IMG/VR virus record: IMGVR_UViG_3300025093_001722
Location: 1 to 36,915 of that record
From: a virus
DNA: 36,915 nt
Reading direction: 5' to 3' (one strand)
Part shown: piece after piece, positions 19,550 to 22,235 of the stretch
Numbering within the stretch: the first letter of the stretch is position 1
How the letters are laid out: every line of letters starts with the position of its first letter
The notes under the pieces: model-generated
The model's database searches: none
The model's input: only the letters and a program-made list of their open reading frames with translations
Told to the model about the DNA's origin: nothing
Translations under genes and position numbers: made by a program

Positions 19550-20602
19550 TTAAGCGTTTCTTTTGAACACCACGCTCCCTAGTAGCTCTTTTCTTAGATT
19601 TTGACTATCTGCGTGCGATGCGTGACCAATCCAGCTGGCGACGACTTGGCGCACTTCGTCTAGCTCAATGGCCCCTACGGCATATTGGCGCTGTAGGTGG
19701 CGCAGCTTTTTGCGCATGCGTAGCACCGAGTCTTTGCGTACCCGGCGGGCATGGGGCCAGATTTTGTAACCGAGAAAATCCAGGCCTCTACCTCTGGCCT
19801 TGCTGACTGGAAACACTTGGGTTTTGTGGTTGGTCTTTAGGCGCAGCTGATCCCACAGGAAGTGCTCTATTTGCGCGCGTATCTGGTGCAGGCGTGCTTT
19901 ATCGTGGTGGATAACGCAAAAATCATCCATGTATCTGATATAGCGCCGCTCGCGCAGGCCGTGCTTTACGTAGTCGTCTAGCTCGTGAAGATAAACATTG
20001 GCGGCTAGCTGGCTGGTTAGGTTTCCGATCGGCAAGCCCTTGGGCGCTAGGTCGCCTTCGACGGCGCTGGAATCAATGATCTCATCCAGCATAGCGATGG
20101 TTTGCGGGCAGCCGATGCGGCGGCGGAATAGGCGCTTTAAAACACCGTGGTCGATGCTGGCGAAGTATTTGCTTATGTCGGCCTTTAGCACGTAAACGCG
20201 CCCATGGCCGCGCTCTACTTGGCGTAGGAACTGCTGTGCTTTGTCTGCCCCGGCGTGCATTCCTTTGCCTGGGCGGCAGGCGTAGCTATCGCTGTGAAAG
20301 GTGCGCTCGAATATGGGCTCGATAGTGCCTATTAGTGCGTGCTGTGCGACGCGGTCACGGTAGGGCAGGGCGGCGACGGTGCGCTCTTTTGGCTCGAACA
20401 CGCGAAAGTAGCGATATTCGCCAGTGCGGTAGGTGCCTTCGGTGATTTCGCGTTGAAGCTGGAACAGGTTTCCCTCTAAGTCTTGGCTGAAGCGCAGCAC
20501 TTCGGCGCGATCTTGCTTGCCTCGGCGGGCCTGCAGGTGGGCGCGGTACAGGCTTTCAAAGTCTGTGATTTGAGGCATTAGCCCGTAGTGCCTTTTGGCC
20601 AT
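19550..20602 (-). CDS. DGR reverse transcriptase
   Basis: 350 residues, typical for a diversity-generating-retroelement RT. Motifs: RT1/2 DRVAQHAL (83-90) and KADISKYFASIDH (140-152, catalytic Asp), RT4 GLPIGNLTSQLAANVYL with the DGR-type IGxxxSQ (192-198), RT5 YIRYMDDF with catalytic YMDD (224-227) and RT7 LDFLGYKIW (274-282). There is no RNase H or maturase domain. It copies the TR RNA with errors at adenines and so supplies cDNA for replacement of the VR. ATG 20602 has AAGGAA 6 nt before it. It is last in the unit VP-Avd-TR-RT, all minus strand. A cellular group II intron RT is excluded by the IGxxxSQ motif and by the TR/VR pair. Confidence 0.97.
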   Translation of the reverse strand: MAKRHYGLMPQITDFESLYRAHLQARRGKQDRAEVLRFSQDLEGNLFQLQREITEGTYRTGEYRYFRVFEPKERTVAALPYRDRVAQHALIGTIEPIFERTFHSDSYACRPGKGMHAGADKAQQFLRQVERGHGRVYVLKADISKYFASIDHGVLKRLFRRRIGCPQTIAMLDEIIDSSAVEGDLAPKGLPIGNLTSQLAANVYLHELDDYVKHGLRERRYIRYMDDFCVIHHDKARLHQIRAQIEHFLWDQLRLKTNHKTQVFPVSKARGRGLDFLGYKIWPHARRVRKDSVLRMRKKLRHLQRQYAVGAIELDEVRQVVASWIGHASHADSQNLRKELLGSVVFKRNA

Positions 20603-20632
20603 CGTTCTTCCTTGGCGACTTGTTGATGAGTG

Positions 20633-20668
20633 GGCGCGGCGGCTTTCCTAAATACTTGCCGCCGCGCC
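20633..20668 (-). ncRNA. GC-rich hairpin in DGR template RNA spacer
   Basis: An 11-bp perfect stem (20633-20643 with 20658-20668, GGCGCGGCGGC/GCCGCCGCGCC) with a 14-nt loop lies between TR and the RT start. In known DGRs the spacer between TR and RT is part of the structured template RNA needed for priming. It could also act as an attenuator before RT. Which role applies is not known from sequence alone. Confidence 0.55.
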
Positions 20669-20766
20669 GATTCCGTTTTTCGGCTTTCGCCGGGGGCTGG
20701 GCGTCCTTTTGAATGGCTCGGGATGCACGCCCTTGAGCGGGCACCTTCTGGCCGGGGTAGTCCAAG

Positions 20767-20882
20767 AGCGGGGCGGAACCCGATGTTCGTGTTCGTGTTC
20801 GTGCGCGGGTTGTTCAAGTTCAGCGCGCCGAGGCCAGCATTGCTGCCGTTGTTCCAGTTGCCTCCACGATACGGGAACCGCT
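20767..20882 (-). repeat. DGR template repeat (TR)
   Basis: 116 bp aligned without gaps to 21312-21427 (constant offset 545). 100 positions are identical and 16 differ; at each of the 16 the TR base on the coding strand is A. In the VR reading frame the TR holds ten Asn codons (AAC or AAT) and one ATC at the varied positions, the classic template design that gives wide amino-acid choice without stop codons. 28 adenines are present in the TR. It lies 24 nt after the Avd stop. The non-coding TR is transcribed together with spacer to serve as RT template. Confidence 0.98.
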
Positions 20883-20906
20883 AATAACTCCCAGCCCGTT
20901 TACTGC

Positions 20907-21239
20907 TTAGCGCATGGACTTGATCCATCCGCCTGTCATTCTACCGATTTCATCGACCTTCCTTGACCAGGCTTCATAGCGCTTTAGCGGCAAAAACGTT
21001 AACTGATGCGCCATGCGGATTAGTGAGCGGAGCGTGTCTAGCTCGGCGTCTAATTCCTGCAAGGTGGTTTTCTTGTGGTACCGCTTGTTGCAAATAATGA
21101 TCAGGCGCAGCAGTTTCCAACAGCTGCCGCGTATCTCTGCGCTTAATACGTGCCGCTCTGATTTGGGGAACTGCCGCAACGCCACGTAGGCGTAGGCGAT
21201 CATCTCTTCTGTTCGTCGCCTGATTTTAAGGTCTTCCAT
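20907..21239 (-). CDS. avd: DGR accessory protein Avd-like (four-helix bundle)
   Basis: 110 residues, helical and basic: MEDLKIRRRTEEMIAYAYVALRQFPKSERHVLSAEI, then GSCWKLLRLIIICNKRYHKKTTLQELDAEL and LRSLIRMAHQLTFLPLKRYEAWSRKVDEIGRMTGGWIK. This matches the Avd/23S-rRNA-intervening-sequence-protein family (S23), which forms a pentameric barrel that binds the RT and nucleic acid in mutagenic retrohoming. The ATG at 21239 has AAGGA 9 nt upstream, just behind the GATA-loop hairpin. The position between VP and TR is canonical. Confidence 0.93.
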   Translation of the reverse strand: MEDLKIRRRTEEMIAYAYVALRQFPKSERHVLSAEIRGSCWKLLRLIIICNKRYHKKTTLQELDAELDTLRSLIRMAHQLTFLPLKRYEAWSRKVDEIGRMTGGWIKSMR

Positions 21240-21255
21240 TACGCTACGTCCTTAA

Positions 21256-21273
21256 GCCCGGCTATCGCCGGGC
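21256..21273 (-). other. DGR target-site hairpin/cruciform
   Basis: A perfect 7-bp stem GCCCGGC/GCCGGGC with tetraloop GATA on the coding strand, 38 nt past the VR end and 27 nt past the VP stop. In the Bordetella phage BPP-1 DGR a GC-rich hairpin with a GRNA tetraloop downstream of VR raises homing efficiency; GATA fits GRNA. Confidence 0.8.
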
Positions 21274-21299
21274 CGTTCAGATACTCAGGGTTTCAGATG

Positions 21300-22235
21300 T
21301 CAGAGCGCAAAAGCGGGGCGGAACCCGAGGCGCGTGCCCGTGAGCGTGCGCGGGTAGTACAAGCCCAGCGCGCCGAGGCCAGCACTGCTGCCGCTGACCC
21401 AGTAGCCTCCACGATACGGGAACCGCTCGCCTGTGAGGGTGGTGTAGATACGGCCCTGCAGGGCAACGCCTGCCTGGGTGATCAAGAGGCGGTTGGTCAG
21501 CTCATTGCCCACCACGGTATTGGTGCTGAAGTTGCCGCCGCTATCCAGATCAATGCCGGTATCTTGCCAATCCGCTTCGGCGCGGGCGTAGTCGTTGTCA
21601 GCAGAGGCGAAGACGCGGCCATCTACCATTTTCATGCCGTCTTGCCATTCCCAGACGTTGCCCACTAGATCAGCGATGCCGCCTAGGGTGCCATCGTGAC
21701 GCCATGACGCTGGGCCTGAGCCAGTGAGCGTGCGGGAGTCTCCCTCGGCTACGCCAGGCGTTCCGCCGTCCTGACGGCGGGCGACTTCGTGGGTGGCGTC
21801 GTGGGCGCGGCCGTAGTCAGTGTTGCCGCGCGGCTCCATTCCATTGGCCTTGCACCAGAGCGCGACTGCTGCCCATTCGTGCATGGTCATCAAGTGCCAG
21901 CCCGCGCCTTTGTTTTCGCAGGCGGCTTTTGATGCGTCGTAGTTAATGGAGGCGCGCGGATCCCGACCGGGCAGCGATACGGCGCGACCATCAAATACGC
22001 TGGCTTGATATTGGCCGATAAATATTTCGCTTAGCTCGGTATTGCCCTTGGTGAACGCGGTGCAAACACCGGCGCCTAGCTCGGTATCAAAGCCGAGGTC
22101 TTCATAGCGGAACTTGGGGATGACGTGCATGTAGGACGGGAATCCCTTGTCGTCATACAGCACGGTGACCTTGCCGCCGGTGGCGGCTTCGACTTGGGCG
22201 CGCAGGCTATCGGGTGAGGCGATGATGATGGACAT
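21300..22235 (-). CDS. DGR variable protein, C-type-lectin/FGE-like fold
   Basis: 311 residues. N-terminal 60 residues have a small beta domain (FRYEDLGFDTELG). The rest is a formylglycine-generating-enzyme-like C-type-lectin fold, shown by GAGWHLMTMHEWAAVALWC near 140-158 (FGE LPTEAEWE equivalent), GGIADLVGNVWEWQDG near 200-215 (GNVWEW motif) and the terminal GGYW...LGFRPAFAL (FGE GFR). The last 39 residues, 270-308, are encoded by the VR. The variable positions are 278, 280, 281, 284, 291, 293, 294, 298, 300, 302 and 303. It is the likely host-receptor-binding tip of the tail fibre. ATG 22235 has AGGAG 7 nt upstream. Confidence 0.95.
   Translation of the reverse strand: MSIIIASPDSLRAQVEAATGGKVTVLYDDKGFPSYMHVIPKFRYEDLGFDTELGAGVCTAFTKGNTELSEIFIGQYQASVFDGRAVSLPGRDPRASINYDASKAACENKGAGWHLMTMHEWAAVALWCKANGMEPRGNTDYGRAHDATHEVARRQDGGTPGVAEGDSRTLTGSGPASWRHDGTLGGIADLVGNVWEWQDGMKMVDGRVFASADNDYARAEADWQDTGIDLDSGGNFSTNTVVGNELTNRLLITQAGVALQGRIYTTLTGERFPYRGGYWVSGSSAGLGALGLYYPRTLTGTRLGFRPAFAL
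21312..21427 (-). repeat. DGR variable repeat (VR)
   Basis: 116 bp at the 3' end of the variable protein gene, 12 nt before its stop. Sixteen substitutions relative to the TR, none at non-A template positions. Changes seen in the coding sense include Asn to Tyr (three times), Gly, Ser, Leu, Val and Arg. The final GC-only part (CCGCCCCGC) before position 21312 should be the initiation-of-mutagenic-homing site; TR and VR diverge right after it. Three ACG (Thr) codons have kept their A. Confidence 0.98.

Follow-up and report, generated by a model that had tools for sequence, protein, structure and literature searches.

The gene cluster that lies behind the tail fibre gene of the phage genome IMGVR_UViG_3300025093_001722 (IMG/VR) raises the question of whether it forms a complete diversity-generating retroelement (DGR), whether this element has been in use and what it diversifies. 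DGRs of this kind are best known from Bordetella phage BPP-1 and Vibrio phage VHML. The record is complete and its 36,915 bp, the whole stretch of DNA that was analysed, are hereafter termed the window. It encodes the P2 capsid, scaffold, small terminase, gpA replication protein, integrase, repressor and FI/FII tail module, with the portal and large terminase divergently transcribed relative to the rest of the genome, and is a P2-like temperate phage (Peduoviridae-type). When the phage collection was searched for near-identical phages, the sole match was the sheath at 5% coverage. Near the S24 repressor, an IrrE/ImmA-like M78 peptidase (10549-11643; PADLOC capP/RmrA-like matches) adjoins an unknown 190-aa ORF and is a candidate lysogeny control or defence gene; an SNase-Excalibur nuclease (9462-10118; weak PADLOC C3a212 match), also near the repressor, is possibly an accessory gene. 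The tail locus is organized as follows.

22609..23484, minus strand: gpH-type tail-fibre protein (phrog_3100, phrog_4209), residues 1-66 of which match tail-fibre N-terminal families
22276..22599, minus strand: small protein of 107 aa (phrog_8734), encoded between the genes of H and the variable protein and conserved in relatives
21300..22235, minus strand: variable protein, the DGR target, 311 aa (ORF; phrog_2889, E 7e-116)
21312..21427, minus strand: VR, 116 bp, codons 271-308 of the 311 of the variable protein (alignment with TR)
21300..21328, minus strand: IMH, the adenine-free identity tract TCGGGTTCCGCCCCGCT (21312-21328) followed by a part divergent from TR
21256..21273, minus strand: target-recognition hairpin GCCCGGC-GATA-GCCGGGC with a GRNA tetraloop, perfect, 38 nt after VR
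20907..21239, minus strand: avd, accessory variability determinant, 110 aa (Pfam bAvd, E 3e-34)
20767..20882, minus strand: TR, the template repeat, 116 bp with 28 adenines and 10 AAY codons in the VR frame
20603..20766, minus strand: spacer RNA, conserved hairpins with compensatory changes (covariation)
19550..20602, minus strand: DGR reverse transcriptase (RT), 350 aa (phrog_1423, E 3e-138; RVT_1, E 2e-19)
17919..19454, minus strand: tail sheath FI, the next gene after RT (Phage_sheath_1, E 5e-23)

The initial annotation, made from the letters alone, had described a complete DGR in canonical order on one strand, located between tail fibre H and sheath FI. These coordinates bear out the order (variable protein, avd, TR, RT), the ORFs of the variable protein, avd and RT are all uninterrupted, and the placement agrees with the flanking genes, which are gpI, the gpH-type tail-fibre N-terminus and the small protein upstream, and sheath FI and tube FII downstream. 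The RT is a group-II-like enzyme of the DGR clade whose best solved structure is BPP-1 bRT (8ub7, E 7e-63); the expected IGxxxSQ and YMDD motifs are intact, as IGNLTSQ and YMDD, and align to those of bRT. The Avd accessory protein scores 126 bits against the NCBIfam model DivGenRetAVD (cut-off 80), and a PDB search with its sequence returned 0 matches.

Only one long direct repeat occurs in this region, pairing 20763-20882 with 21308-21427. Over the 116 bp of TR and VR, which align without a gap, our recount gave the same figures as the initial annotation: 16 mismatches, every one of them at one of the 28 template adenines, and 0/88 differences at other positions. The hypergeometric chance of all 16 mismatches falling on TR adenines is 1.8e-12. 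The substitutions are spread over 11 codons, namely the ten AAY codons of TR, all of which are changed in VR (10/10), and one ATC; stop codons cannot arise by any A-to-N change in the variable-protein frame, and such changes give access to about 2e15 protein variants. We found no further VR across the whole 36,915-bp record. Pooling 76 TR/VR pairs, from a scan that favours A-biased pairs, gave 906 changes at 1915 A sites versus 32 at 6540 non-A sites. In L092 and L097, two tandem VRs, belonging to two copies of the variable protein, match a single TR and differ almost only at adenine sites.

The initial annotation had proposed that changes at TR adenines be sought in VRs of related phages, and such changes were indeed found in relatives of this phage (designated here by L numbers). 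L049 and L051 are identical over 500/500 bp of the upstream variable-protein gene and have identical TRs, but their VRs differ at 13/24 A and 0/91 non-A positions. L046, L047 and L048 behave alike (upstream identity of 99.6-99.8%; VR differences at 12-13/23 A and 1-2/92 non-A), and the VRs of VHML and VP58.5 differ at 11/24 A and 0/92 non-A. These observations bear on the possibility that TR and VR are an ordinary tandem duplication altered by point mutation, lying beside an RT of another kind (retron, group II or defence). The RT does score against group II, retron and DRT models, albeit weakly and far below all cut-offs; the adenine restriction, the matches to DGR-specific families, bRT as best structural relative, the presence of Avd, IMH and hairpin and the VR-only polymorphism in relatives all speak against it. 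We consider this duplication scenario refuted by the adenine restriction together with the population test, and its residual likelihood as negligible. Adenine-directed mutagenic homing, as originally proposed, is supported.

The relatives also provide a time scale for homing. Their TRs differ from that of the window at 7-20 non-A sites, and at these sites the VR of the window and that of the relative each follow their own TR in L019 (7/7), L036 (8/8), L035 (17/17), L020 and L021 (20/20 in both), L037 being the exception with 7/9. VRs tracking their own TRs across lineages indicate that copying of TR into VR took place after these lineages had parted, and the 88/88 agreement at non-A positions in the window, despite the divergence of the relatives' TRs, implies that homing was recent on that scale. 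The earlier statement that the element has been active on this copy therefore holds for the period since divergence from the relatives; for the present day, we infer from sequence that the element may still be active. We conclude that the cassette is a complete, recently used DGR of a P2-like temperate phage, a reading to which we assign a probability of about 97%.

The first base beyond the 116 bp is C in TR (20766) and T in VR (21311). This C20766/T21311 pair was considered as a non-adenine counter-example and rejected, since relatives carry the same TR/VR distinction (CTCTT on the TR side versus CTTTT or similar on the VR side recurs in those aligned); being common to relatives, it fits an IMH*/IMH boundary rather than a homing error. 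A hairpin resembling GCCCGGC-GATA-GCCGGGC was looked for after TR and is absent there. GRNA-loop hairpins with differing stem sequences follow VR in at least 28 DGR loci, including those of BPP-1 and VHML, and both the consensus of the target-recognition hairpin after VR and the BPP-1 IMH rule have been described (Guo et al. 2011, PMC3240598). The window accordingly displays both the IMH/IMH* asymmetry and a GRNA-loop hairpin downstream of VR only. As TR lacks this hairpin, the template would not be overwritten.

A structured RNA was also detected in the spacer between TR and RT. In an alignment of 28 sequences, 90.6% of cells pair and 12 of the 15 pairs show covariation, with a score of 0.537 versus 0.173 when shuffled (0/500); double changes number 81, versus 25 in shuffles and 19-36 with the partners slid. 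The fold energy of the single sequence reaches a z of only -1.5, so that covariation is what supports a structure. A third helix, visible in single-sequence folds, could not be aligned across the set and was left out of the covariance model, termed R1. Beyond the sequences used for training, this model recognized another 13 DGR loci (E 7e-12 to 6e-34) and partially matched the truncated contig L022, whereas DGR-less relatives gave a noise-level score or no match. Rfam 15 searched with the spacer yielded no match at the threshold used except a chance miRNA-type one. The spacer of the window is a putative Sp-like RNA that may recruit RT-Avd, a role which the equivalent spacer has in BPP-1 (PMC12875486); R1 does not recognize the BPP-1 spacer, and we therefore make no claim of homology between the two RNAs.

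The product that is diversified was modelled with AlphaFold2 (mean pLDDT 90). Its best PDB match is TaqVP (5vf4; TM 0.90, 36% identity, E 1e-36), Mtd and TvpA being the next structural matches, far behind. The variable protein is thus predicted to adopt a TaqVP-type C-type-lectin (FGE/SUMF1-like) fold with VR at its C-terminus, corresponding to the 3' end of the gene. Each of 24 Klebsiella phage records (H91-H110, H114-H117) contains a homologue that matches the variable protein over its first ~210-220 residues and lacks the VR end. Given its position, homology and predicted fold, the variable protein is most likely the receptor-binding tail tip, for which the gpH-type protein is the probable mount. 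It might instead be another displayed or host-directed protein, for instance secreted or exposed on the lysogen surface, as could be argued from the peptide counts of the homologous antireceptor of Pseudoalteromonas phage ACA1, which were unexpectedly high and exceeded those of the capsid protein (PMC10612066). The gene directly follows gpI, gpH and the small tail-module protein and precedes the sheath, its homologues are annotated as antireceptor or virion structural protein, and Mtd is among the structural neighbours of the model, all of which renders such a role improbable and favours a receptor-binding tip.

The following scheme draws on BPP-1 for its biochemical steps, for receptor binding and for the benefit to the phage. 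The RT-Avd complex would bind a transcript that extends from avd across TR and the structured spacer; RT would copy TR, misincorporating opposite adenines, and the variable-protein gene would receive the mutated cDNA in place of the VR at its 3' end, with the adenine-free IMH tract and the GRNA-loop hairpin as marks of the homing site. The tail tip would thereby carry a lectin-fold protein whose ligand-facing residues are randomised and which most likely binds the host receptor.

The same arrangement is already known in VHML, and a homologous DGR has been published for the P2-like Pseudoalteromonas phages ACA1 and ACA2 (PMC10612066); with the gene order of VHML and a published homologue in ACA1, the DGR of the window belongs to a known kind. 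VHML and VP58.5 (Vhmlvirus) share with the window the order W-J-I-tail fibre-VP-avd-TR-RT-FI-FII, where VP is the variable protein (43-44% identity; RT 48-51%), a 116-bp TR, the same spacer RNA and the hairpin after VR (with GGTA as its loop), but have one more small gene, located after RT and before the sheath. VHML has been described as more lambda/N15-like in the parts of its genome outside the P2-like tail module (PMC10612066), whereas the head and replication genes of the window are P2-type. ACA1 and ACA2 are P2-type and have a separate gpH mount, an antireceptor VP (40-41%) and avd and RT (50%), and their isolates exhibit VR-only differences (PMC10612066). Their DGR, in contrast, occupies another site of the tail module, is followed by small genes and the U and D genes instead of FI, includes the extra gene gp45 and encodes diverged proteins. 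According to the 2023 report on ACA1 and ACA2, DGRs were lacking from all other characterised phages of P2-like background (PMC10612066). The BPP-1 element (mtd-avd-TR-brt) has the same order, a 39% identical RT, an Avd, the IMH rule and the GRNA hairpin, and differs in its Mtd target, the fold of which is only distantly similar (TM about 0.37), in a spacer RNA outside the recognition of R1 and in the phage type. TaqVP shares the predicted fold of the variable protein over the whole length of the latter; it is a DGR target of Thermus aquaticus and has a longer chain.

Comparison with the closest genomes revealed that the cassette can be lost or exchanged. In the nearest relative found, L031/L111, the sheath is 97%, H 91% and the variable protein 84% identical to those of the window. 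Its variable protein is intact and an IMH-like end and a GRNA hairpin are kept, but in place of avd, TR and RT there are about 720 bp of unrelated DNA (L111:6095-7000, IMGVR_UViG_3300034655_000031), in which an antisense ORF of 208-211 aa gave no Pfam or PADLOC match. Compared with the TR of the window, the VR of L031/L111 is changed at 20 of the 28 adenines and at 5 of the 88 remaining positions, a pattern expected of an old homing product. Elsewhere, L071 (7095-7372) has a truncated avd and no RT, the variable protein of L086 is followed almost directly by the sheath (3060-3150) and the cassette is absent, as it is from L039, and the RT of L035 (4455-5420) is frameshifted, an assembly error being possible for a single frameshift. 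At the same place (2451-6335), L115, whose sheath is 80% identical to that of the window, carries an unrelated DGR, made up of a 676-aa fibre with a Lcl_C/DUF1566-type domain, its own Avd, a TR at 5084-5224 and an RT of only 33% identity.

The absence of avd, TR and RT from the nearest relative means that the cassette is dispensable in this lineage, and this, along with the defects of L035 and L071 and the frameshifted RT of the published ACA1 prophage (PMC10612066), would fit a cassette that is intact in sequence but disused in the window as well, its VR being a frozen product of past homing. Open ORFs, intact motifs and a TR/VR agreement that has persisted while the TRs of relatives diverged argue against this scenario, which we regard as unlikely, though worth keeping in mind, in comparison with a complete and recently used DGR.

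Carriers, losses and the L115 swap at one position indicate that the site behind this tail is one where DGRs are kept, swapped or lost. As L031/L111, lacking avd, TR and RT, retains the IMH tract and the hairpin together with the variable protein, re-diversification in trans is conceivable: a co-resident phage with a DGR, such as the phage of the window, could diversify the frozen receptor of L031/L111 anew. That DGRs are in these phages modules repeatedly gained, swapped and lost round a constant tail, with a target gene that is kept ready and orphan targets that can be re-diversified in trans, is a speculative extension to which we give little credence.

The DGR of the window is unusually clean: all known sequence signals are present, and the phage background is P2-like. 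The R1 model, which is family-wide for VHML-type DGRs, might be of use in detecting DGRs and TRs when assemblies are fragmentary. Comparing carriers with losers of the cassette may reveal under which circumstances phages maintain the machinery for mutating a receptor and under which they give it up, fixing a single receptor.
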